Positions 3,927 to 60,231 of a stretch of 64,000 nt of DNA are shown piece after piece; within the stretch, counting starts at the first letter, position 1, and every line of letters begins with the position of its first letter. The DNA lies in the NCBI GenBank assembly GCA_016872835.1, contig VGYX01000007.1, positions 73,184-137,183 of the forward strand, given 5' to 3'. The notes beneath the pieces were generated by a model. It searched no databases. It worked only from the letters and a program-made list of their open reading frames with translations, and was not told the DNA's origin. The position numbers and the translations under genes were made by a program. Source of the DNA: Planctomycetota bacterium. GTDB lineage: Bacteria > Planctomycetota > Phycisphaerae > Phycisphaerales > SM1A02.

Positions 3927-5774
3927 TCAGGTGTACAGCAGCACCAGGAGCGCGAGGTCACCCGAGTCGACCTCGCCGTTGCCGTCGAGATCGCTCGCGC
4001 AGCCGCCACAGGCACCGAAGTCCAGCAGCAGCATCGCGACGTCGCCGGGGCCGACCGTGCCGTCGCCGTCAAGGTCGCCCTGCAGTCCCGTGCCAACGGT
4101 CACCGTGAGCGTGACCTGCACATTGCGGATCTGCTCGCCGGCCACCGCCTCGTCGCTGGTTCGAACCGTCGCCACCGTGCTGTACTCGCCCGGCGTGGCA
4201 CCGTTGGAGTCGAAGGCGAACTGCAGCGTGCGCGCACCCGTCGCGAGGTTCGCGCCGACGCCCTGCGGCATGGTGAACCGAGACGCGAAGGCTCCGCTGA
4301 AGGTGACCTGGTCCACGTCGAGCTTGGACTGCGAGGCGTCGTAGCCGAAGTTGTAGAGCGGCGTCGTGACCGTGGCGGCGCCCGTGTCCGGCTCGCACTC
4401 CAGCGTGAGGGCGATCGAGTTCAGATCGCTGGCAAGGGCAAGCGAGGGGTTGCTTCCGCGAATGACGCTGACCGAAACGGGAAGCGAGACCGCCGCCGGC
4501 TCGACTGCCTCGCTGGAGCTCGTCACACTGACGGTGCCTGTGGCCGTGCCCACCGTGGCGGTGTTCAGCGACACGTTCACGGTCGTGGAAGACGGCTGGA
4601 GCGCCGCAGTGCCCGTGGCGGTTCCGGTGACCTTGCCCGAGCTCGTCACGCTGTAGGACAGGTCGTCCACGCCCAGCGCGTTCACATAGGTCGCCACGTT
4701 CTGCACGCGCACGGGCAGCGCGACCGTGGCGTTCTGGATGGCGCGCGTCGGCAAGGCCGACACGAAAGCGGCCGACAGCTTGGCCGGCACGGTGAACTCG
4801 AGAATCTGCGGGATGTGGTCGCTGGCGATCTCCAAGTCGTCGGCCAACGCATTGGAACGGGCCAGTTCGCCCGGGAAATACGTGTTGTTTCCAAAGCCGA
4901 TGCCCTTGTCGAAATGCGCGCCGTCGTTGCCCACGTTGCGCATGGTGCCCGCGATCATGGAGATGCCGTTGCCATCATTCGCCGCAAGACTCGGCATCAC
5001 GAAGTCGAAGCGGTCATCCATGCCGCCACCGACAAGGCCACAGCATGGGTTCACGGCCGGTGCCTGCGAGTGCTTGATCGCCTGCATGGCACCGGCCCAA
5101 GTGCCCGTGCCGAACGGATCCACGGCTTGCGCCGGACCCGCCGAGATGAGTTCCTCGTAGCCAGGCTCCGTGTTGCTGTAGAAGTTGTAGTCACCCGTGT
5201 AGAGGATCGGGTATCCGGCGGGCAGTGCGTCAGCGTTGTTGCGGATGGCCACCGCTCCGTCCAGTCGCAACGCCTCGTTCGACGGACCGCTGCTGGCCTT
5301 CAGGTGCGAGCCGTACACGTACACACGGGCCTTCGTGTCGCTGTAGCCCGTCAGTTGCAGCAGCCAACGGTCGGTGTAACGACCGGCCTCGGTGAAGATG
5401 TCGGCATGGCCCGAGGTGATTTCGGAGAAGCGGTCGCTGCGATAGAACATCGCCTGCGCACCACTTGCGCTGGTCTCGCCGCTGGCCGAGGTGTATGTGG
5501 CGAGCGTGTAGGTCACACCCGTCGGCGCCGCGCCGTTCACCAGCGACTGCAGTGAACTCAGGGATCCTGTCGTGACCTCGTTGAAGGTGATGATGTCGAC
5601 CGGCTGCGCCCAACCTGCCTTGTTGTCCGCATGCAACGCCTGAAGCACGCGCGTGAGCGCGGCGGGGTTGCCCTTCAGGGCGCAGATGTTCCAGTGCGCC
5701 ACCCGGATCTGCGCATGTGCAGAAACAGCCAGACCAACCACCGACAGGAGGGCCAGCAGGCGGGAGGGTCGCAT
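3927..5774 (-). CDS. Exported endonuclease/exonuclease/phosphatase-family protein with dockerin-like tail
   Basis: A signal peptide ending in SAHA/Q is followed by an EEP (DNase I-like) domain at residues ~24-325. All expected active-site positions are visible: HWN (N29), NE (E66), GSHLKA (H157), TGDYNF (D195, N197), DDRFD (D254/D257) and SDH (D319-H320). Such enzymes cut phosphodiesters of nucleic acids, lipids or phosphoinositides; the substrate cannot be told here. Residues ~330-560 form a Thr/Ser/Val-rich region that looks like beta-sandwich modules. The last ~50 residues are paired dockerin-like loops (DLDGDGTVGPGD, DLDGNGEVDSGD). The start at 5774 is fixed by the signal peptide and by TATCCT 8 nt upstream. 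Length is 615 residues. Confidence 0.87.
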   Translation of the reverse strand: MRPSRLLALLSVVGLAVSAHAQIRVAHWNICALKGNPAALTRVLQALHADNKAGWAQPVDIITFNEVTTGSLSSLQSLVNGAAPTGVTYTLATYTSASGETSASGAQAMFYRSDRFSEITSGHADIFTEAGRYTDRWLLQLTGYSDTKARVYVYGSHLKASSGPSNEALRLDGAVAIRNNADALPAGYPILYTGDYNFYSNTEPGYEELISAGPAQAVDPFGTGTWAGAMQAIKHSQAPAVNPCCGLVGGGMDDRFDFVMPSLAANDGNGISMIAGTMRNVGNDGAHFDKGIGFGNNTYFPGELARSNALADDLEIASDHIPQILEFTVPAKLSAAFVSALPTRAIQNATVALPVRVQNVATYVNALGVDDLSYSVTSSGKVTGTATGTAALQPSSTTVNVSLNTATVGTATGTVSVTSSSEAVEPAAVSLPVSVSVIRGSNPSLALASDLNSIALTLECEPDTGAATVTTPLYNFGYDASQSKLDVDQVTFSGAFASRFTMPQGVGANLATGARTLQFAFDSNGATPGEYSTVATVRTSDEAVAGEQIRNVQVTLTVTVGTGLQGDLDGDGTVGPGDVAMLLLDFGACGGCASDLDGNGEVDSGDLALLVLLYT

Positions 5775-5829
5775 CTCGGTAGAGGATATCCCCGAAGCCG
5801 CGAAGTCCAAGAACTCGTGGCCAGGAACC

Positions 5830-5860
5830 TTGAAACGGTCAGGGCTGGTGCGGGTATACC
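5830..5860 (+). promoter_or_regulatory. Sigma70-type promoter for the M16 peptidase operon
   Basis: TTGAAA (5830-5835) and TATACC (5855-5860) are spaced by 18-19 nt. The predicted leader of ~60 nt ends in a GGAG site (CTGGAGACC) before the ATG at 5926. It lies back to back with the short promoter of the divergent EEP gene (TATCCT, 5783-5788 on the minus strand). Confidence 0.6.
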
Positions 5861-5925
5861 TGTCCTCCCCGCAGGGTTCCCGGTCGCTCCGGCCCTGGCT
5901 CTCGGACTCGAACTGGAGACCTCTC

Positions 5926-7827
5926 ATGACCCGGATGCTCGCGATCGCCACCGTCCTGACCGCCCTGCTGGCCCCCCGCCCCGCCGCCGCGCAGCAGGTC
6001 GACGTGCAGGAGTTCAAGCTCGCCAATGGCATGCGCTTCCTGCTGGTGCCCCGCACCGACCAGCCCAACGTGATCGCGGCCGGCTGGCTGGCGAAGGTGG
6101 GCAGCGTGAACGAGCGCCCCGGCATCACCGGCATCAGCCACTTCTTCGAGCACATGATGTTCAAGGGCACGAACACCATCGGCACGCGCGACGCGGCAAA
6201 GGACGCCGACTACCGCGCCAAGCAGAAGGCGCTGCGTGACCGCATCAACGCGATGGTGTGGAACGACCAGTACGTGCGCTTCTTCCGCGGCGAGATCGAC
6301 GATCCCTGGAACCCCGCCAACGACACTCCCGAGCTGAAGGACCTGCGCGCGCAGCTGAAGACGCTGATGGACAGCCAGCAGGGACGTGGCATGGGCGAGG
6401 AACTCACCACGCTGAAGAAGGACCTGGCCGCCGTGGACACCAAGGCCCCCGACGCGGCCGCGAAGACCGACGTGCTGAAGAAGCGCATGGCTGAGATGGA
6501 GCTCGCCCAGTCCGCCGCCGGCAGCATCGTGAAGGACGAGTTCGACCAGGTCTACAGCAAGAACGGTGGCAGCGGCATGAACGCCTTCACCAGCCACGAC
6601 CTGACCTTCTACTTCATCAACGTGCCCAGCAACAAGTTCGAGCTGTGGGCATGGATGGAGAGCGACCGCCTGAAGGACAGCGTTTTCCGAGAGTTCTACA
6701 GCGAACGCGACGTGGTGCACGAGGAGCGCCGCCTGCGCACCGAGAGCACGCCGACCGGCAAGTTCCAGGAGCAGTTCGACGCGATGTTCTGGGTGAGCTC
6801 GGGCTATGGCTGGCCGGTCATCGGCTGGACCAGCGACCTGAACAGCTACACGATGGAAGAGGCGATGAAGTACTGGAACATCTACTACCGGGCCAACAAC
6901 CTGGTGGGCATCATCGTGGGCGACTTCAAGCCCGACGAGGTGAAGGCGACCATCGAGCGCTACTTCGGTCGGCTCGAGGCGGGCAAGGAGATGCCACCCC
7001 AGGTCGTCACGCTGGAGCAGAAGCAGAGTGCCGAGATGCGCATGAACGCCGAGGGCGACTTCCAGCCGCAGGTCGAGGTGCGCTACCACACCGTGCCCGC
7101 GGGCCACAAGGACAGCTACGCGCTGGAGATGATGGCCGAGATCCTGAACGGCAAGACCGGTCGCCTGTACAAGACCATGATCGAGGGTCGCAGCATCGCC
7201 AGCAGCGGCCGCGCACAGAACGACGCGCGCAAGTACGCGGGCCTGTTCGCCTTCGAGGCCGAGACCAAGGGCGACGCGACACCCGATCAGCTGGAGCAGG
7301 CCTGGTACGAGGAACTGAAGAAGCTGCAGGACGCGCCCGTGGACGAGCGCGAGCTGCAGAAGGTGAAGAACCAGGTCGCGGCCGACAGCTATCGCCGGCT
7401 GCAGAGCAACTTCTTCCTGCTGGTGCAGCTGGCCTACGCCGAGTCGATGATGAGCTGGCGCGAGCTGAACGAGGCGCCGAAGAAGCTGCAGGCCGTGACC
7501 GCCGCGGACATCCAGCGCGTGGCGAAGGCCTACTTCGACGTGAACAACCGCAGCGTGGCGACCTACAAGCGCAAGGCTGGCGCGGCGGCCTCGGACGATC
7601 CGGAACTGGCGGCACTGCCCGCGCCGATGCGTGCGCGCGCCAAGCAGATGGCCGCGCAGCTGGGTCAGATGCAGGATCCGGCGGAACTGCGCCAGACCAT
7701 GGAGGCCTTGGAAGCGCAGTCCGCGCAGGTGCCCCCGCAGATGAAGCCCATGTTCGAGTACATGAAGAAGAAGATGTCGGAGCGCCTGCAGCAGCTCGAG
7801 AGCGGCGCAGCACCCGCCGGCAAGTAA
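5926..7827 (+). CDS. M16-family zinc metallopeptidase, catalytic subunit, exported
   Basis: The 633-residue protein has a signal peptide (LTALLAPRPAAAQQ) and an M16 peptidase fold. The inverted zinc motif HFFEH is at residues 72-76, and the third ligand is in VVHEERRLR (E266). About 190 residues separate the two, whereas classical M16 enzymes have roughly 75. The excess is a charged, Lys/Glu/Ala-rich insertion at ~85-205 that looks helical. The C-terminal half carries the second M16-like domain. A GGAG site precedes the ATG. The next gene starts 31 nt downstream and encodes an M16 protein without the zinc motif, so the pair probably forms a heteromeric periplasmic peptidase acting on peptides. 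Confidence 0.92.
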   Translation: MTRMLAIATVLTALLAPRPAAAQQVDVQEFKLANGMRFLLVPRTDQPNVIAAGWLAKVGSVNERPGITGISHFFEHMMFKGTNTIGTRDAAKDADYRAKQKALRDRINAMVWNDQYVRFFRGEIDDPWNPANDTPELKDLRAQLKTLMDSQQGRGMGEELTTLKKDLAAVDTKAPDAAAKTDVLKKRMAEMELAQSAAGSIVKDEFDQVYSKNGGSGMNAFTSHDLTFYFINVPSNKFELWAWMESDRLKDSVFREFYSERDVVHEERRLRTESTPTGKFQEQFDAMFWVSSGYGWPVIGWTSDLNSYTMEEAMKYWNIYYRANNLVGIIVGDFKPDEVKATIERYFGRLEAGKEMPPQVVTLEQKQSAEMRMNAEGDFQPQVEVRYHTVPAGHKDSYALEMMAEILNGKTGRLYKTMIEGRSIASSGRAQNDARKYAGLFAFEAETKGDATPDQLEQAWYEELKKLQDAPVDERELQKVKNQVAADSYRRLQSNFFLLVQLAYAESMMSWRELNEAPKKLQAVTAADIQRVAKAYFDVNNRSVATYKRKAGAAASDDPELAALPAPMRARAKQMAAQLGQMQDPAELRQTMEALEAQSAQVPPQMKPMFEYMKKKMSERLQQLESGAAPAGK

Positions 7828-52097: not shown

Positions 52098-52817
52098 TCA
52101 GTTCCAGCTCAGGCCCTTGGGCCAGCTCTCGGGGTGCTGCGCCTCGGCGCCGGCCACCACGCCCTCCAGGTGCGCGATCGCCTGCGCCACCATGCGCGCG
52201 CGTTCCCACGGATCCCCGCTCGCGAGCATCGCGTAGCGCGCGGGCTCATCCTGCAGCAGCGCCGCACCGACCAACTCGATCATGGCATGCGTCGGAATGT
52301 CACCGCGCTCGGCCCATGGCATCACGGACTTCACGCTCGCCATGCGCTGTACACGGGGTCGCAGCAGCAGTTGCCGAAGCGCGCGGCGCGCCTCGGGCAT
52401 CCGCGGGGGCGTCCGAGTCGGCGGTTCGATCGGTCGCAGCACGGCCTCGCGATAGAGCCGCTTGCCGTCCGCCTCGTCGATGCGCTCGATGCGCGCACGA
52501 CAGATGCCATGCAGCAGGATCGTGTGGCGGCCGTCGGCCAGCCGCTCATGCTGCACGATCTGGCCCACGCACACGGCAGGGCGAAGCGGCACGGACACAC
52601 CATGCACGCGCCCGCCACCCGCGATCGTGGCCATGGCGATCGGACGCGCCGTCAGCAGCGCGCCCCCGCGCACCTCCGACAGGCACGCCTCGACCATCTG
52701 GCGATAGCGCGGCTCGAAGACGTGCAGCCCCTGCACGGCGTGCGGCAGCAGCACCGTTCCGCCAAGTGGAAACAGCGGCACGGGCCGGGAGAAGTCGATC
52801 GTGATGGAGCGTTCCAA
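52098..52817 (-). CDS. Stand-alone LON substrate-binding-domain protein
   Basis: The 239-residue protein resembles the N-terminal domain of Lon protease with no ATPase or protease part: VPLFPLGGTVLLPHAVQGLHVFEPRYRQM, VGQIVQHERLADGRHTILLHG. Such stand-alone domains are common and of unknown function. No ATG fits; TTG at 52817 is used, 8 nt after TAGCAT (52826-52831, minus strand). The EVE gene follows 3 nt later. Confidence 0.82.
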   Translation of the reverse strand: MERSITIDFSRPVPLFPLGGTVLLPHAVQGLHVFEPRYRQMVEACLSEVRGGALLTARPIAMATIAGGGRVHGVSVPLRPAVCVGQIVQHERLADGRHTILLHGICRARIERIDEADGKRLYREAVLRPIEPPTRTPPRMPEARRALRQLLLRPRVQRMASVKSVMPWAERGDIPTHAMIELVGAALLQDEPARYAMLASGDPWERARMVAQAIAHLEGVVAGAEAQHPESWPKGLSWN

Positions 52818-52850: not shown

Positions 52851-55349
52851 TCACGCCGTGGCCGAGATCAGCAGTGCGCCGCGCGCGCCCGCCTCGCGAC
52901 GCCGTGAGGTCACGAGTCGGTGCAGGGTGAGCAGGTCCTCGGCGTCGACCGATCCGATGCTGGAGTTCCCGAGCAGGTCCCCGTCGACGGCCGGAACCTT
53001 TCCGTCCGACAGGACCGTCAGTCGTCGCAGCGTGTCCAGATGCGCCCATCCATCCGGCACGCTCGCCGGGGCCGGCGCGTCCGACAAGGGACCGCCCCAC
53101 GGATCCTGCTGAGGCGGCGAGTCGATCACCGCACCATCCGCGTCGGCCCCCCACTGCTGCAGGAACGTCGCGACCCATGGCGAACTGACGCGCAGCCGCT
53201 CGAGCCTCGGAAGGATCCATGGATGGGGAAGCCCGGGCGGATGCGCGGATCGACGCGACATGAGCGCGTGCAGACCCTCGATGCCGCGAGCGAGGTCATC
53301 CGTGCCCATCATGCGCCGATAGCCGGCCGAATCCACCGCGTGCAGGTCCACCGTGATGACGTCCACATCGATGTCCTTCAGCTGGTCGATCGAATGCGGT
53401 GCGATGAGTTCGGTGCGGATCTCGATCGCGAGCGCCCCCGCCGCGCGGATCCTGCGCACGAAGTCGTGCACATCCGGATGGATGAGCGGATCGCCTGCTC
53501 CGGCCAGCGTCACTGCCACGTCACGGGCCTCCGACACGCGCGACAGGATGCGGTCCAATCGGCGCTGGGTCATTGGGGGCCGCTGCAGCGAGCCGAACCG
53601 GTGTGGACTCGCGACACCGCAGCCGCGCCGACCCGTGTTCAGCTCGATGATCAGGTGCTGCGGCGTGAAGGCGGGCAACGCCTCCGATTGCCGCGCGACC
53701 GCCGCGATCATCAGGTCCTGCGGAAGTTCGTGAGCGCCGTGCAGCAACGGTTCCAGTGCTCGACGGATCCTGCGAATCGACCGCGGCGTGTCCATCACCA
53801 GACGCTCGCGAAGCAGCGCGATCGATGACGGCGGGCGAAGTCGCTCCACGCGCCTTGACCAGTCCACGCGCCGCTCCAGCCACGCTCCGACGCTCGGCAC
53901 GTCGCCACGCGCAAGCGACTCCATCGCGCCACGCGAAAGCAGACAGCCGCTCATGCCGGCGGGCCCCGGCGCGAACTGCATCCACGGGCGCTCTGGAAGC
54001 GTGGCGAGCCGATCCACCATCGCGTCGACGCCCCACGGCTCCCGGACCGACACCAGAGGCCAGTCCGGTCCGCACAGGAACACTTCCGTCGCACTCTCGC
54101 GCTGCGCAGCCTCCAGCATCACGCGCGGCGCCAGCACCTCATCGAAGACGCTTCGTCCACCCAGGCCACCGCGCCAGCAGGCGTCGGCCCATGCGCGAGC
54201 CGCTTGACGACTCCCGATCGAACCCGACAGCACGCCTCCATCGACCCACATCCAGGCAAGCCGCGCGCCACCATCCAGGCCGTCTAGCGCCTCGCCAGGA
54301 TCCCATCCGGTCGGCGCCGCGATCACGATGCGCTCCAGACGTCGCGACGAAAGCAGCCGCTCGAGCGTCCGCCTGAAGATGGTGCACCCGCCAAGTTCCG
54401 ACTCCAGGCGCCTGGCCACACCGGTTCCGCCACGCGCGGGATCCACCGGCACGAACGCGATGGCCCGCGCGGCCTCCTGCGTCACGCGAGCGTCCGCGGC
54501 CGTCGCCGTGCGCACGCGTGCCGCACGGACTTCCGGCAGCACGGGAGTGCGGCGCGAGGCGAGTCGCTCCAGCACCATCGCCAATGGCCGCTGCTCGGTG
54601 TGACGCTTCGTGCAGCCTCCCTCGGTGGCGTCGATCACCTGCAGACCCGCGCGCCGATCCTCGTCGAACGCGGACTCCAGCATCGCGCGCTCACGATGCA
54701 GCATGTGATCGGTCAGCACCGCGCGGCCGCCACGATCGGGCTCTCGAAGCAAGCCGCCCTGCCGCGATGCGATCCGCCGCGCATGCAGCCAGTCCCAGCT
54801 ACGGAACGGGTTCGTCTCCAGCGCCCACGCGTAGTCGATCGCGTGGCCCGGGGCATGCGCGATGCCGTCCACGAACGCCAGATCGACCCCTACCAGCGCG
54901 ACCGGATCGCAGCCGAGGTGCCGGATCAGCAGATGCGCGACGAAGGTCTCCTCGCCATCACTGGCGTCGCACTCGATCACGTGCGCCCCCTCACCGGACA
55001 ACGCGTCGGCCGCCGCCGATCCCAACGCCACGATGCGCGATCCGAACTCCTTCGCGGCCTCGAGGTCCACCAGTCGTGGCTCCTCGCACGCGACCACCAC
55101 GTCCGGTCGCGCGCCGAGCCGCTGCAGCGGGCCCATGCTGTCGATGGTCGCCACGATCAGTCGCCGCCCCGCATGCCGCGGATCCGCCAGCAGGAACCCG
55201 TTGCGCGCCAGGCTCGGCCCCGCGGACACGACGATTCCAAGGCATCCCTGCGCCACATGCGACCACGCGGTGCCGACCGGTGACGCCACCAGCGCCTGCC
55301 ACAGCGCGGCGCGACGGGCCGCGAGCGCTTCCGTCTTCTCGGTCGACAT
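52851..55349 (-). CDS. Triple fusion: MptE/Maf-like (DUF115), cytidylyltransferase-like, and cysteine-less radical-SAM/SPASM-like domains
   Basis: An 832-residue soluble protein. Residues ~35-215 fit the MptE/motility-accessory-factor family (GIVVSAGPSLARN, RPDVVVACEEPR, ALVGVDLAF), which includes sugar transferases for flagellin. Residues ~295-480 resemble SpsF-type cytidylyltransferases (AFVPVDPARGGTG, FRRTLERLLSSRRLERIVIAAP). Residues ~563-700 follow a radical-SAM barrel (LIIELNTGRRGCGV, AGAGDPLIHPDV), but the CxxxCxxC cluster motif is absent. Residues ~770-805 match a SPASM segment (LTVLSDGKVPAVDGDLLGN) with its cysteines replaced too. A glycan-decoration role is inferred from the first two domains. 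TAGGCT (55356-55361, minus strand) lies 6 nt before the ATG. Confidence 0.72.
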   Translation of the reverse strand: MSTEKTEALAARRAALWQALVASPVGTAWSHVAQGCLGIVVSAGPSLARNGFLLADPRHAGRRLIVATIDSMGPLQRLGARPDVVVACEEPRLVDLEAAKEFGSRIVALGSAAADALSGEGAHVIECDASDGEETFVAHLLIRHLGCDPVALVGVDLAFVDGIAHAPGHAIDYAWALETNPFRSWDWLHARRIASRQGGLLREPDRGGRAVLTDHMLHRERAMLESAFDEDRRAGLQVIDATEGGCTKRHTEQRPLAMVLERLASRRTPVLPEVRAARVRTATAADARVTQEAARAIAFVPVDPARGGTGVARRLESELGGCTIFRRTLERLLSSRRLERIVIAAPTGWDPGEALDGLDGGARLAWMWVDGGVLSGSIGSRQAARAWADACWRGGLGGRSVFDEVLAPRVMLEAAQRESATEVFLCGPDWPLVSVREPWGVDAMVDRLATLPERPWMQFAPGPAGMSGCLLSRGAMESLARGDVPSVGAWLERRVDWSRRVERLRPPSSIALLRERLVMDTPRSIRRIRRALEPLLHGAHELPQDLMIAAVARQSEALPAFTPQHLIIELNTGRRGCGVASPHRFGSLQRPPMTQRRLDRILSRVSEARDVAVTLAGAGDPLIHPDVHDFVRRIRAAGALAIEIRTELIAPHSIDQLKDIDVDVITVDLHAVDSAGYRRMMGTDDLARGIEGLHALMSRRSAHPPGLPHPWILPRLERLRVSSPWVATFLQQWGADADGAVIDSPPQQDPWGGPLSDAPAPASVPDGWAHLDTLRRLTVLSDGKVPAVDGDLLGNSSIGSVDAEDLLTLHRLVTSRRREAGARGALLISATA

Positions 55350-55427: not shown

Positions 55428-56165
55428 ATGCGCACCATCGCCCGGATCCTCGTCGCGGCCGCGTGTATCGGCCTGCTGCTTGGCGGTGGCTGGCTCGCGG
55501 TGTCGCTGGTGCAGACGGCGCGCCTGCAGCGGCAGGTCGCCGAACTGGAACGCGCGATCGAAGCGGAACGCGCACTGCGCGCCCGGATTCTCGAACGCCT
55601 CGGCAGCGAGCGTCGACTCGCACGGATCGAGGTCGTGCAGCAACATCGTTCGGACGATCCTTCGGCGCGCGCGCTGAGCGCCGCCAGCGTCGCCGAATTG
55701 CCCGCATCCGGCATCCTCACGACGCTCGACTTCATCGAGCTCGATCCCGATGGCCGCGAGATCGGTCGTCGTCGCGTGCGTGTGCCGGGCACCACCGTGT
55801 ATCTCGACGCGTGGACCGTCCGATTCCCGCAGGAGTCAGTCGCGGAGGCCGATCCGCTCCGTGGTCGCACGCTCACGCTGCTGCGACGCGTCTACTCCGA
55901 TCGCATGCCCCCTTCCGATGGTGTGGCGCTGGACACGCCCGGCGCGGTGCCGGGCGGCTACGCCGCAAGCGAGGGCGCGCGTTTCGAGCAGGCGCTCTGG
56001 AAGCGCTTCTGGAGCCTGGCCACCGACGCGGAAGCGGCGCGCAAGGCTGGCGTGCGCGTGGCGCAGGGTGAGGCGGTGTACAAGCCCGTCGCCCCGGGTC
56101 AGCGCTACGACCTCGAGATCGAGAGTTCCGGAGGCCTGATTCTCAAGCCCGCGGACGCGCCGTAG
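55428..56165 (+). CDS. Membrane-anchored coiled-coil protein of unknown function
   Basis: A 245-residue protein has one N-terminal membrane helix (ILVAAACIGLLLGGGWLAV). A short coiled coil at ~35-65 (RQVAELERAIEAERALRARI) and a likely extracytoplasmic beta-rich domain follow. The later part, ESVAEADPLRGRTLTLLRRVYSDRMPPS and GAVPGGYAASEG, gives a family feel, but I cannot name one. It is divergent from the triple-fusion gene across 78 bp and precedes ltaE by 63 bp. Confidence 0.72.
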   Translation: MRTIARILVAAACIGLLLGGGWLAVSLVQTARLQRQVAELERAIEAERALRARILERLGSERRLARIEVVQQHRSDDPSARALSAASVAELPASGILTTLDFIELDPDGREIGRRRVRVPGTTVYLDAWTVRFPQESVAEADPLRGRTLTLLRRVYSDRMPPSDGVALDTPGAVPGGYAASEGARFEQALWKRFWSLATDAEAARKAGVRVAQGEAVYKPVAPGQRYDLEIESSGGLILKPADAP

Positions 56166-56228: not shown

Positions 56229-57266
56229 ATGCATCTCGTCGACCTTCGCTCCGACACCGTCACACGCCCCACGGCCGCCATGTGGGATGCCATGCGCCGC
56301 GCACCGCTTGGCGATGACGTGCTCGGCGACGAGCCCACGGTCACCGAGCTCGAGCGTCGGCTCGCGGCGATGCTTGCCAAGGAGGCCGCCCTCTTCGTGC
56401 CCAGCGGAACCATGGCGAATCAGCTCGCCATCCGGTGCCACTGCGAGTCCGGCGACGAGATCGTCGCGCACCGCGACAGTCACATCATCCATTACGAGAC
56501 CGGTGCGCCTGCGGCGCTTTCTGGATGCATGATCCATCCGCTCGACGGCGAGAGTGGCCTCTTCACGCCTGAAGCCGTGCTCGCCTCGCGACGCAGTCGC
56601 GCGACCTACGCACCTCGGCCCAGCCTGCTTGTCGTCGAGAACACGCACAATCGCGGAGGAGGAACCATCTGGTCGTTGGAGCGTTTCCATGCCGTCGCCC
56701 ATGCCGCGCGATCGCTCGAGATGCGCGTGCATGTCGACGGCGCACGACTCTGGAACGCGTGCGTCGCCGCGGGCTACGCACCGGCGGAGTTCGCCCGGCA
56801 TGCTGACACGGTCAGCGTGTGCTTCTCGAAGGGCCTCGGTTGCCCGGTCGGCAGTGCGCTTGCGGGTCCTGCCGACGTGATCGATCGCGCACGCCGCTTC
56901 CGAAAAATGTTCGGTGGCGGAATGCGCCAGAGTGGCCTGCTGGCGGCAGCGGCGCTCCACGCGCTTGATCACCATGTCGATCGAATCGCCGAAGACCATC
57001 GCCATGCCATCCGACTCGCGACCGGTGCTTCGACCTGTCGGGGCATCTCGCTCGCCATCGCGCCCGACCACACCCCCACCAACATGGTCTTCCTGCACAT
57101 CGATCCGACGATCTGCACTGCCCAGGAGCTGTCCGACCGGATCGCGCGTCAGGGCGTGCATGCCCTCGCTCTCGATCCCCAGCGCCTTCGGCTCGTCACG
57201 CATCTGGACATCACGACCGCAGGCATCGACCATGCCGTCGAGGCGATCCGATCCGCGCTCGGCTGA
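56229..57266 (+). CDS. ltaE: Low-specificity L-threonine aldolase
   Basis: This PLP enzyme cleaves threonine or allo-threonine to glycine and acetaldehyde. The 345-residue protein has LRSDTVTRPT at the start, GDDVLGDEPTV, FVPSGTMANQLA, HVDGARLWNA, and CFSKGLGCPVGS with the PLP lysine at 201. TACCTT (56215-56220) lies 8 nt before the ATG. There is no signal peptide and the gene appears to stand alone. Confidence 0.93.
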   Translation: MHLVDLRSDTVTRPTAAMWDAMRRAPLGDDVLGDEPTVTELERRLAAMLAKEAALFVPSGTMANQLAIRCHCESGDEIVAHRDSHIIHYETGAPAALSGCMIHPLDGESGLFTPEAVLASRRSRATYAPRPSLLVVENTHNRGGGTIWSLERFHAVAHAARSLEMRVHVDGARLWNACVAAGYAPAEFARHADTVSVCFSKGLGCPVGSALAGPADVIDRARRFRKMFGGGMRQSGLLAAAALHALDHHVDRIAEDHRHAIRLATGASTCRGISLAIAPDHTPTNMVFLHIDPTICTAQELSDRIARQGVHALALDPQRLRLVTHLDITTAGIDHAVEAIRSALG

Positions 57267-57375
57267 GCGCGGGGGCGTGAGGCAGATTTTCTCGGACTTC
57301 GGCCGGACAAATCTTTGCCTTCCTCTGAACCTGCCTTTGGATTGCCGCCGACCGGAGTCACAATGCGGTGAGTTG

Positions 57376-60231
57376 ATGCGCAGGCTCATCACGAAGAGTG
57401 GCTCGTTGCTCTCCGTCGCGTTGGCGTCGACGTTGTGCTCCACCGCCTGGGCGAACGATCCGACATGCTGCTGCACGGCGCACGTCACACCATCCTGCAG
57501 CGACGCCGCGTGCTCAGCGAAGGTCTGCGCCATCGATCCATACTGCTGCAACACCCGGTGGGACGCGATCTGCGCGACGAAAGCGGCGCAACTGTGCGGC
57601 GCCGCAGCCCCCTACTGCATCGACTCGAACCAGGACAACACCCCGGACATCTGCGCCGCCGGCGGCGGAGGCGGCGGAACGGGCGGCGCCGACTGCGACA
57701 ACGACGGTCAACCGGACACGCTTCGCAACGGCCCCGCAGGCAAGAGTTCATGGAGCGGCCCCACGAACGGCTTCCATTTCTTCGAACCCGAGCAGAACTG
57801 GACGCTCGGTCGTCCAGGCGCGCTGACGTTCGCGGAAGTCGCCGTTCCCTACACGCAGTACTACAACGCGCTGCAGATCAAAACGGACTGCGACAACGCC
57901 GTCCGATCCCTCGAGGTCACCGACGGCGGCACGTCGAACCTGCACGACCTGACGTTCGACCTGAACATGCGGACCCTGCGCTTCGCGGGGCCGGCTGCGC
58001 ACTCGGTGCTGGTCACGCCGAACTCCTTCGACACGCTTCGCCTCGAGTTCCGCAACGGTTCGATCGACGGCACCAGCAATCCGTTCTCCATCACCAGCAC
58101 CGGAGCGCTGCAGCTGACCTTCGGCAACATCGACCTCCAGAGCGATTCGTTCTCCTGGAAGACGACCTCAAGCTGGACCGCCGATCCGATCCTGCTGGTG
58201 GACTCGGATTTCAAGATCAGAAGCTGGGACTGGCCGAAGAATGCGGCAGGTGACGATCTCTTCGCCTACCTACGACTCTCGAAGAGCCGGCTGCTCTTCC
58301 AAGGTCAATCCCCCACCTTCACGGTCCCGGATCAGGCGTGGATCAGCGTCTACTCGAACACGACCTACGACTACAGCGAGATCACGGGAACCGGCGGCGT
58401 CAAGATGATCACCGAGCCCGGCTCGTTGATCACACTGGACGGTACGCTGACGGTTGACTCCCTCGCCATCGACGGCGCACTGCAGATCCGTCCGCACTGC
58501 CTCACGCTCGCAGAGGGCTGCCGCCCCAGCAGGCTCGGCGCGCAGGAATTCAGCTGCGGCGTGAACTCCAAGGCGTCGATCACCTGCAGCGTGGATCTCT
58601 CGGGCAACTCAGGCACCACGCCGTTCGGCTCGGCCGTGATCTCCGCCTCGGTGGAGGCCGATGTCGGCGGCATCCTGAACATCAACGACATGTCCAACGG
58701 CGAGCCGGTCCTCGAGGGCTACGCCGTGCCGCTCATCTGGGCCGCGAACTTCCTGCCGGGTGGATCGAACTTCGATGTCGTCCGCATGCTCGGCGCGGGC
58801 CTGTCCGGCGGCCTCTATGTGACCACGACCGAATCCGCGGGCACGATCTCGCTCGAGGTCCGTCGCGGCTTGCAGGTTGCCGCCGCGCCCGTCGCCAACG
58901 CTTCCATTCCGCAGGCTCCGGTGAAGAGCGTCATGCTTGACGACGGTTTGATCAGCGGCATCCAACGAATCGCCTCGGTCACCAACGGTGGCCAGAATTT
59001 CTCCTTAATCCGTGTCGACAAGCTGGATCCACAGTTCGGATTCTTGCAGGAGTGGGTGACCTACGGCCCCGCCGATCCGACTGATCTCGATGTCGGCGAC
59101 ATCGACGGCGACAGCAAGGTGGACATCGTCGTGAGCTTCGGCAGCCCTGGAAAGGTGATCGCCTACAAGCAGGTCGCCAACAACGGCGTGCCCTCCTTCG
59201 TCACCCTCTGGCAGAACCAGCTCGAGGCAGGTCGCCGCGCTGAGTGTGTCGCCATCCTTCCACCCGACGGCCCTCGCGCCTCGCTCCTCCCGACTGGAGC
59301 CACCACCGCCACCGGCACCTCGAAGAACGGCTCCGGAAGCATCACCACCGTCAGCTCGACCGGCACCACCACCGGCACCGCCGAGACCGCCGCAGTGCCG
59401 CGTACGGTCCGCGGCACCGACATCGACAACGACGAGGACACTGATGTGGTGGCAGGTGGCGGTTCCGACGCCGCCGAACTGCTCCCCTCGGGTCCCGCAG
59501 GATTCATCCAGGTCATCCAGCGTGATGTCACCGGCGGATTCTCGTCGCGTCCCGCGATTCCCACGGCTGGCGTCCCGAACTCGATCGCGATCGGCGATCT
59601 CGACGGCGACGGATATCCCGATGTGGCGGCGAGCTGCGACGGCATCTCCGGCTCGTTCCCCAACGGAGCCCGGCCCACAGGCATCGTCCTGCGCGGCGCG
59701 CCCGTGACCGGCCCGGGTTCGCGCCCGTCCCTGCTCCGCAATCCGTGCCCGGTCGACGTGGGAGGCCTCTCCGCACAAGGCAAGGGCGTCTCGATCCTCG
59801 ACGGCGATGGCGACGGCAACCCGGATCTGGCGCTCGCCTGGGAGAGCAACGACTTCCAGACTCCCTCGGGCGGAGCCGCGATCTTCCCGATCCGAGATCC
59901 GCGACCGACCGGCGGCCTCTCGATCGCCACCCCCGCGCAGTTCGTGACCGGTCCCGTCCTGCAGATGATCCCGGCTGGCCGCGCTGGCCTGATCACCTTC
60001 ACGCAGTCGACGCAGAACCTCACTGGCGGTGTCGATGTCGACCAGACCGAATTCGGAGCGGCGGCCATCGCGGGCGACCTCGATGGCGATGGTCTCGTCG
60101 GCCCCTCGGACATCTCCATCCTGCTGCTCGAGTTCGGTGCATGCACCAGTTCGAACTGCCCCGCCGATCTCGACGGCACGGGCTTCGTGGACAACGCCGA
60201 CATCTCGCTGCTGCTGCTCTTGTTCGACTGA
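57376..60231 (+). CDS. Exported Cys-rich/VCBS-repeat protein with dockerin-like tail
   Basis: A 951-residue protein. After a signal peptide (ending STAWAND), residues ~29-75 are a Cys-rich module (PTCCCTAHV, CSDAACSAKVC, CCNTRWDAICATKAAQLC) with 13-14 cysteines. A Gly-rich spacer (GGGGGGTGG) and a Ca-loop follow. The middle is beta-rich, and the later part holds FG-GAP/VCBS-like calcium repeats (DVGDIDGDSKVDIV, AIGDLDGDGYPDVA, ILDGDGDGNPDLAL). The final loops are DLDGDGLVGPSD and DLDGTGFVDNAD. VCBS repeats often build a surface propeller. GACAAAT (57306-57312) and TTGGAT-n16-CACAAT upstream may form the promoter. Confidence 0.85.
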   Translation: MRRLITKSGSLLSVALASTLCSTAWANDPTCCCTAHVTPSCSDAACSAKVCAIDPYCCNTRWDAICATKAAQLCGAAAPYCIDSNQDNTPDICAAGGGGGGTGGADCDNDGQPDTLRNGPAGKSSWSGPTNGFHFFEPEQNWTLGRPGALTFAEVAVPYTQYYNALQIKTDCDNAVRSLEVTDGGTSNLHDLTFDLNMRTLRFAGPAAHSVLVTPNSFDTLRLEFRNGSIDGTSNPFSITSTGALQLTFGNIDLQSDSFSWKTTSSWTADPILLVDSDFKIRSWDWPKNAAGDDLFAYLRLSKSRLLFQGQSPTFTVPDQAWISVYSNTTYDYSEITGTGGVKMITEPGSLITLDGTLTVDSLAIDGALQIRPHCLTLAEGCRPSRLGAQEFSCGVNSKASITCSVDLSGNSGTTPFGSAVISASVEADVGGILNINDMSNGEPVLEGYAVPLIWAANFLPGGSNFDVVRMLGAGLSGGLYVTTTESAGTISLEVRRGLQVAAAPVANASIPQAPVKSVMLDDGLISGIQRIASVTNGGQNFSLIRVDKLDPQFGFLQEWVTYGPADPTDLDVGDIDGDSKVDIVVSFGSPGKVIAYKQVANNGVPSFVTLWQNQLEAGRRAECVAILPPDGPRASLLPTGATTATGTSKNGSGSITTVSSTGTTTGTAETAAVPRTVRGTDIDNDEDTDVVAGGGSDAAELLPSGPAGFIQVIQRDVTGGFSSRPAIPTAGVPNSIAIGDLDGDGYPDVAASCDGISGSFPNGARPTGIVLRGAPVTGPGSRPSLLRNPCPVDVGGLSAQGKGVSILDGDGDGNPDLALAWESNDFQTPSGGAAIFPIRDPRPTGGLSIATPAQFVTGPVLQMIPAGRAGLITFTQSTQNLTGGVDVDQTEFGAAAIAGDLDGDGLVGPSDISILLLEFGACTSSNCPADLDGTGFVDNADISLLLLLFD

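Follow-up and report, generated by a model that had tools for sequence, protein, structure and literature searches.

What can a protein do that has the predicted fold of a radical-SAM/SPASM enzyme and carries cluster cysteines at neither site? This question is raised by a gene in the window, which is the whole stretch of 64,000 nucleotides of planctomycete DNA that we analyzed. When we checked the translation, the CxxxCxxC motif was absent from the whole window protein and its SPASM-like tail was free of cysteines. The first-pass annotation had read the protein as an MptE/Maf-like, an SpsF-like and a radical-SAM-like domain in this order, and the folds matched by these parts (5mu5, 6oew_B and SuiB/MoaA/BtrN) bear this out. 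The features are as follows:

52851..55349, minus strand: whole gene, four-part protein of 832 amino acids (open reading frame; same neighbours around orthologues in related genera)
54495..55265, minus strand: shortened Maf glycosyltransferase core, residues about 29-285 (5mu5 fold; PF01973 below cut-off; alignment; motif count)
53649..54473, minus strand: SpsF/IspD-like nucleotidyltransferase fold lacking R..G..P.K, residues 293-567 (6oew_B fold; motif comparison)
53070..53666, minus strand: radical-SAM-like barrel lacking CxxxCxxC, residues about 562-760 (PF04055; SuiB, MoaA and BtrN folds)
53607..53630, minus strand: former cluster loop RRGCGVAS, residues 574-581 (alignments; column counts in 50 rows of the window's order)
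52905..53069, minus strand: SPASM-like tail without cysteines, residues about 761-815 (alignment to cysteine-keeping relatives and PF13186 matches in those)
52971..53021, minus strand: LTVLSDGKVPAVDGDLL, residue 777, counterpart of DGxVxxCxxD (translation; alignments with relatives)
52098..52817, minus strand: downstream gene with a LON substrate-binding domain (PF02190, 3.2e-22; conserved neighbourhood of target gene, LON, LemA and RuvB)

In the 832-residue translation, NTGRRGCGV occupies residues 571-579 and AGAGDPLIHPDV stands at residue 616. Upstream of the target gene lies a divergent gene of 245 amino acids (55428-56162), which is kept in the congeners G162 and G168 (53% identity) and belongs to no Pfam family. 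A large FG-GAP repeat protein (56914-60228) ends in a dockerin-like DxDGDG..D tail, as judged by eye.

Profile scores and predicted structure

When the window protein was scanned with Pfam, PF04055 (Radical_SAM) scored above its gathering cut-off despite the missing motif (32.3 vs. 29.5 bits, residues 591-696). PF01973 (MptE-like) remained just below its own cut-off (32 vs. 34.6 bits, best stretch residues 38-102) and exceeded the gathering score in the relatives L002, L006, L012, L032 and L044. For the SPASM model PF13186, no match was obtained in the window protein at an E-value of 10, and no Pfam model named the SpsF-like domain. In relatives, this part gave weak NTP_transf_3, CTP_transf_3 or IspD matches, and it is because of these matches and the predicted fold that we call the domain SpsF-like.

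Residues 285-832, as modelled with AlphaFold2 (pLDDT 85.6, pTM 0.88), aligned with 6oew_B, a Leptospira cytidylyltransferase (Z 19.5, rmsd 3.2, 226 residues aligned), and with the radical-SAM structures SuiB 5v1s_A (Z 18.9, rmsd 3.4, 262 aligned), MoaA 2fb2_A (Z 18.7, rmsd 3.3, 253 aligned) and BtrN 4m7t (Z 18.6, rmsd 2.9, 216 aligned). Residues 1-290 (pLDDT 84.4, pTM 0.85) resembled the Maf structure 5mu5 (Z 18.9, rmsd 4.5, 227 aligned), followed by SteA, an archaeal HPPK and sialyltransferases. In the predicted model, the partial barrel of radical-SAM enzymes is kept as a fold, and the fold retention claimed in the first-pass annotation was confirmed at this level (Z 18.6-18.9 for residues 285-832). 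A chance resemblance to radical SAM is ruled out by the fold matches and the Pfam scores. Annotation based on fold would label this gene a radical-SAM enzyme, which may serve as a warning.

Relation to described families

Among named families, TIGR04321 (spiro-SPASM, NCBIfam), a spirochete family by name, comes closest and gave the best match for the window protein, at 2.9e-12 and 46 bits. For 15 of the 16 other proteins scanned, the best NCBIfam match was either TIGR04321 or a Maf part. TIGR04321 matches span the SpsF-like, radical-SAM-like and SPASM parts (e.g., profile positions 75-506 of 510 in L082), but the curated cut-off of 250 bits was never reached, the highest score among scanned relatives being 159.2 (L082). 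The spirochete members are not known to carry the radical-SAM cysteines either. The haloarchaeal pseudo-SAM/SPASM family TIGR04347 matched weakly in L084 (2.4e-11) and L086 (3.7e-4); for the window protein, no TIGR04347 match was listed by NCBIfam at an E-value of 0.01. It had been stated earlier that no role is described for this domain combination. A named relative does exist, but among open-licence PMC papers we found none that uses the spiro-SPASM name or deals with the combination. An excerpt of one paper gives a single T. pallidum protein as SPASM iron-sulfur binding (PMC4403809).

Barrel and tail are alike in fold to the SPASM maturases (SuiB, anSME, PqqE) and to MoaA (Z 16.8-18.9), whereas the window protein lacks a cluster cysteine at either site. 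In this protein, a fold familiar from peptide modification is linked to Maf glycosylation.

Radical-SAM cysteines among homologues

A homologue is present in 159 of the 201 sampled genomes of the window's order. We extracted 50 rows from 50 genomes of six families, and CxxxCxxC occurs nowhere in any of them; a sequencing error or a lone decayed copy is ruled out by this uniformity. In four families (f1-f4), the protein is encoded by a single gene, and in f5 and f6 by two adjoining genes, Maf and SpsF-radical-SAM. Outside the order, a profile search of 392 genomes from the phylum gave matches in 190, mostly to the radical-SAM part alone. Among 38 proteins fetched from these, CxxxCxxC was absent from all 19 SpsF-linked relatives and present in all 19 that match the radical-SAM part alone, the latter being the best-scoring of such matches and not all of them. 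Thus, the radical-SAM cysteines are absent throughout the examined SpsF-linked family.

For phylogenetic analysis, 79 of 89 rows were used (10 near-copies were dropped) and the motif columns were excluded. The cysteine-bearing rows lie on one side of a branch with an SH-aLRT value of 98, and one change suffices to explain the radical-SAM cysteine state. Support was weak on 35 of the 76 inner branches. Because the tree was obtained by a quick search with midpoint rooting and SH-aLRT instead of bootstrap values, the direction of the cysteine change is inferred. Since all examined SpsF-linked homologues lack CxxxCxxC, the radical-SAM cysteines may never have been there within this family. The first-pass annotation had proposed that both cysteine sets were gone from this protein. 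Both are indeed absent and the SPASM loss can be seen within the order, but the radical-SAM set was not lost in this protein, as the 50 homologues of the order and the 19 SpsF-linked relatives outside it already lack it. This outcome comes close to one that the annotation itself had named as speaking against its reading.

A scan of the genome contigs returned a single locus, in a congener. In a plasmid tblastn search, the best 15 of 25 matches comprised only radical-SAM proteins, which covered 40-48% of the query.

Stepwise loss in the SPASM tail

When the SPASM site was scored at the GxVxxC position in the 79 rows of the tree, 30 rows had cysteines at neither site, 30 at the SPASM site only, 19 at both and none at the radical-SAM site only. 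This cysteine is kept in all examined SpsF-linked relatives outside the order and in the fused rows L044 and L120. Two-gene relatives keep a fuller SPASM set and pass PF13186; cysteines and score were both found in relatives such as L032, L035, L038 and L082. On the tree, no fewer than three changes are required to account for the SPASM state. The sequences compared show a loss of the SPASM cysteines that would have been later than that of the radical-SAM cysteines and inside the order. Intact, half-lost and fully lost forms are all extant, and they would provide a dated path from a radical enzyme to a non-catalytic module, on which the SAM cluster disappeared before the auxiliary cluster, and the motifs of the partner enzymes went last.

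Because the GxVxxC cysteine is retained in 30 of the 60 rows without CxxxCxxC, the tail of these proteins may have kept a cluster along with a redox function. One could go further and assume that it holds a 4Fe-4S cluster for electron transfer or cluster-dependent sensing and that decay has gone further in the window protein, an assumption that would agree with the PF13186 scores above cut-off in relatives. However, among those fused forms of the order that still occur together with flagellin and neuB, most have lost the cysteine. The role that they share can therefore do without the cluster, and we consider this explanation quite improbable.

Motifs of the nucleotidyltransferase and Maf parts

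The SpsF-like part is alike in fold to SpsF and CMP-sugar synthetases (6oew, PF02348; Z 19.5), but the nucleotide-binding motif R..G..P.K is missing in all 36 rows compared. In an excerpt of PMC7439481, SpsF is given as a putative cytidylyltransferase of the CMP-legionaminate pathway of B. subtilis. Both stand-alone CMP-transferases that we checked, encoded by the adjoining gene in L082 and L051, carry R..G..P.K, whereas the fused domain does not, and sugar activation is therefore probably carried out by the former. Judged by the missing motif, the fused SpsF-like domain is probably dead as well.

For the Maf part, residues 1-290 share their fold with Maf (5mu5 of Magnetospirillum magneticum; PF01973; FlagModPseD, NF050051). 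Relatives score well above the PF01973 cut-off and L032 matches NF050051 at 7e-17, whereas the window protein misses the former and, unlike its relatives, lacks the ALD-Y/W-H-x-I motif and the flanking Maf segments, including the N-terminal one. We scored this motif as the ALD-Y/W/H-H/S-x-I of neuB-bearing relatives, and its role is inferred. It is kept in 39 of 47 rows, and two more keep ALD with a variant; all 41 ALD-keeping rows come from genomes with NeuB. The six rows without it belong to G000, G117, G162, G168, G008 and G099, of which only G162 has NeuB. G099 (L018/L129) has flagellin and hook, NeuB was not found there, and its Maf core lacks ALD-H while the SpsF/pseudo-radical-SAM part is retained. 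This genome is an intermediate between the flagellated relatives and the window's genus.

Genomic context and proposed function

Among the 201 genomes of the order, 152 have both the gene and flagellin, 7 the gene only, 10 flagellin only and 32 neither (Fisher p 1e-21). The corresponding numbers for strong NeuB matches, from which 7 weak ones were dropped, are 149, 10, 4 and 38 (p 4e-27); both p-values ignore ancestry. The 7 genomes with the gene and no flagellin, together with the 10 of the reverse kind, indicate that flagella do not require the gene and that the gene does not suffice for them. Five genomes of the same family (G072, G081, G114, G132, G156) have flagellin and FlhA and neither the gene nor NeuB, and thus represent flagella without this glycosylation system. 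Outside the order, 16 of 17 SpsF-linked genomes carry flagellin compared with 184 of 344 others (p 7e-4); this table covers 17 of the 18 SpsF-linked genomes and leaves out G265, which has flagellin.

Both positions were given for 72 of the 159 genomes that have the gene, and in 65 of these neuB is no more than 5 kb away from it. Genes for NeuB, a NeuC-type epimerase, a CMP-transferase, a PglD-type transferase and a B12 radical-SAM protein are found as neighbours in L082, L086, L045 and L051. In L082, the gene of the B12-binding radical-SAM protein (4693-6171) is flanked within the nonulosonate cluster by those for the CMP-transferase and NeuB, and its product may modify the sugar. Of 17 loci outside the order, 10 have Maf directly adjoining the gene, and in the other 7 no Maf was found at this place. 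In L083 and L089, the Maf and SpsF-radical-SAM parts lie in different frames and are therefore neighbours, not a fusion. Taken together, these data show a widespread, vertically kept Cys-less radical-SAM/SPASM module that is tied to Maf and nonulosonate genes. The first-pass annotation had proposed to check the neighbourhood of homologues for nonulosonate or flagellar genes; nonulosonate genes were encountered there, and flagellin in most of the same genomes.

SPASM radical enzymes characteristically bind peptides, and flagellin is a known Maf client. As the module outlives each catalytic feature, we propose that the protein is a non-catalytic client- or ligand-binding platform (a pseudoenzyme) for Maf-type glycosylation, and we give this proposal an even chance of being correct. 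In motile relatives, the SpsF-like, radical-SAM-like and SPASM-like part, encoded with or fused to the Maf nonulosonate transferase and near neuB, would hold a flagellin-type client and/or the nonulosonate donor beside Maf during cytoplasmic glycosylation prior to export. The purpose of such a Cys-less SPASM protein can be tested directly in a motile planctomycete.

According to excerpts of the respective papers, Maf1 of Aeromonas caviae binds flagellin even without sugar and glycosylation by this enzyme takes place in the cytoplasm, ahead of chaperone binding and export (PMC4065374), and the central Maf domain resembles the sialyltransferase Cst-II (PMC11339370).

The role suggested at first pass, namely that the module serves structure or binding within a protein that modifies glycans, gains support from the folds, from purifying selection and from the flagellin and neuB context. 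The accompanying idea that a radical enzyme had been converted into such a module is supported in part. The radical-SAM cysteines are already missing from all SpsF-linked homologues examined, and the SpsF-like motif and, in this genus, the Maf motif are missing as well.

Residues in place of the cluster

The three cysteine positions (Cys1, Cys2, Cys3) are occupied in the window protein by Arg574, Gly578 and Ser581. Among the 50 rows of the order, the first column is Arg in all 49 rows having a residue there, the second is Gly in 40 of 48 and the third Ser or Thr in 36 of 48. Gly578 is invariant in the 19 chosen rows of alignment A1, yet not over the 50 rows of the order. Arg590 is conserved in 44 of 47 rows. 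Outside the order, Arg is found at the Arg574 position in 3 of 17 rows, which makes Arg574 an invention of the order.

These residues are the basis of the main rival to the binding platform. The emptied cluster pocket might be a specific site for a small anion, where the carboxylate or phosphate group of a nonulosonate or CMP-sugar is bound by Arg574 (and Arg590), and the module would then serve Maf by binding its donor or by allosteric control and not as a client holder. The strict conservation of Arg574 within the order, that of Arg590 and the adjacent neuB would be explained in this way, but the scarcity of Arg574 in rows outside the order and its persistence in genomes without neuB would not, and we regard this model as rather unlikely.

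The GxGDP/GEP loop of the barrel is kept. One might conclude from this loop that the barrel still binds SAM for non-radical chemistry such as methyl transfer. However, in radical-SAM enzymes it is the iron-sulfur cluster itself that holds SAM, and this cluster is missing here, which renders SAM binding extremely unlikely.

The gene in a genus without flagellin

The gene occurs without flagellin in seven genomes, namely in all five sampled from the window's genus g1 (G000, G117, G162, G168, G187) and in two of the sister genus g3 (G008, G135). In none of these seven were a rod/hook domain, FliD or FliG found. NeuB was seen in G162 only and is hence gone from four of the five g1 genomes. FlhA is present in all seven and FlhB in six, weakly in several; FliP was seen in G000. 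FliF was detected in g3 only, apart from one sub-threshold match in G117.

Despite these losses, the reading frame is open in G000, G117, G162 and G168; in G187, the gene is split by contig ends. LON domain, LemA and RuvB are the same neighbours in g1, in g3 and, for those reached, in G099. Pairwise comparison of G162, G168 and G187, congeners without flagellin, yielded dN/dS values of 0.120, 0.177 and 0.181 for the radical-SAM and SPASM part and of 0.15-0.16 for the overall gene. The G000/G117 pair is saturated at silent sites, and g3 is looser (dN/dS 0.27). These ratios show purifying selection that conserves the dead module. A plain pseudogene is ruled out by the values of 0.120-0.181.

The gene might also be a relic of lost flagella that is on its way out of this genus. 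The absence of flagellin, rod/hook, FliD and FliG from all seven genomes, that of neuB from six and the loss of the Maf motif would be expected for such a relic, but open frames, conserved neighbours and the overall dN/dS in the three congeners would not, and we judge this scenario highly improbable. If the protein is a binding platform, its module probably survives here, without flagellin, hook, Maf motif and mostly without neuB, as a simple factor for binding a client or ligand. It may serve the reduced flagellar export gate that the genus still encodes, which is the weakest step of our model. This gate, found without flagellin, rod/hook, FliD and FliG in five congeners, is possibly a filament-less export system.

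A bolder extension would be that an entire branch of flagellin glycosylation relies on dead enzymes, namely a pseudo-nucleotidyltransferase and a pseudo-radical-SAM/SPASM module, which present client or donor to Maf. The window's genus would then have lost filament, hook, sugar pathway and even the Maf motif and kept the fully dead four-part protein as adaptor for a stripped-down flagellar export gate that now exports something else. We consider this extension fairly unlikely.

Outside the window, at about 119.7-126.1 kb of contig C4 of G000 (L122:14705-19074 to L123:1111), genes for FliP, a divergent FlhB, FlhA, an SRP54-type GTPase and a sigma factor were observed.
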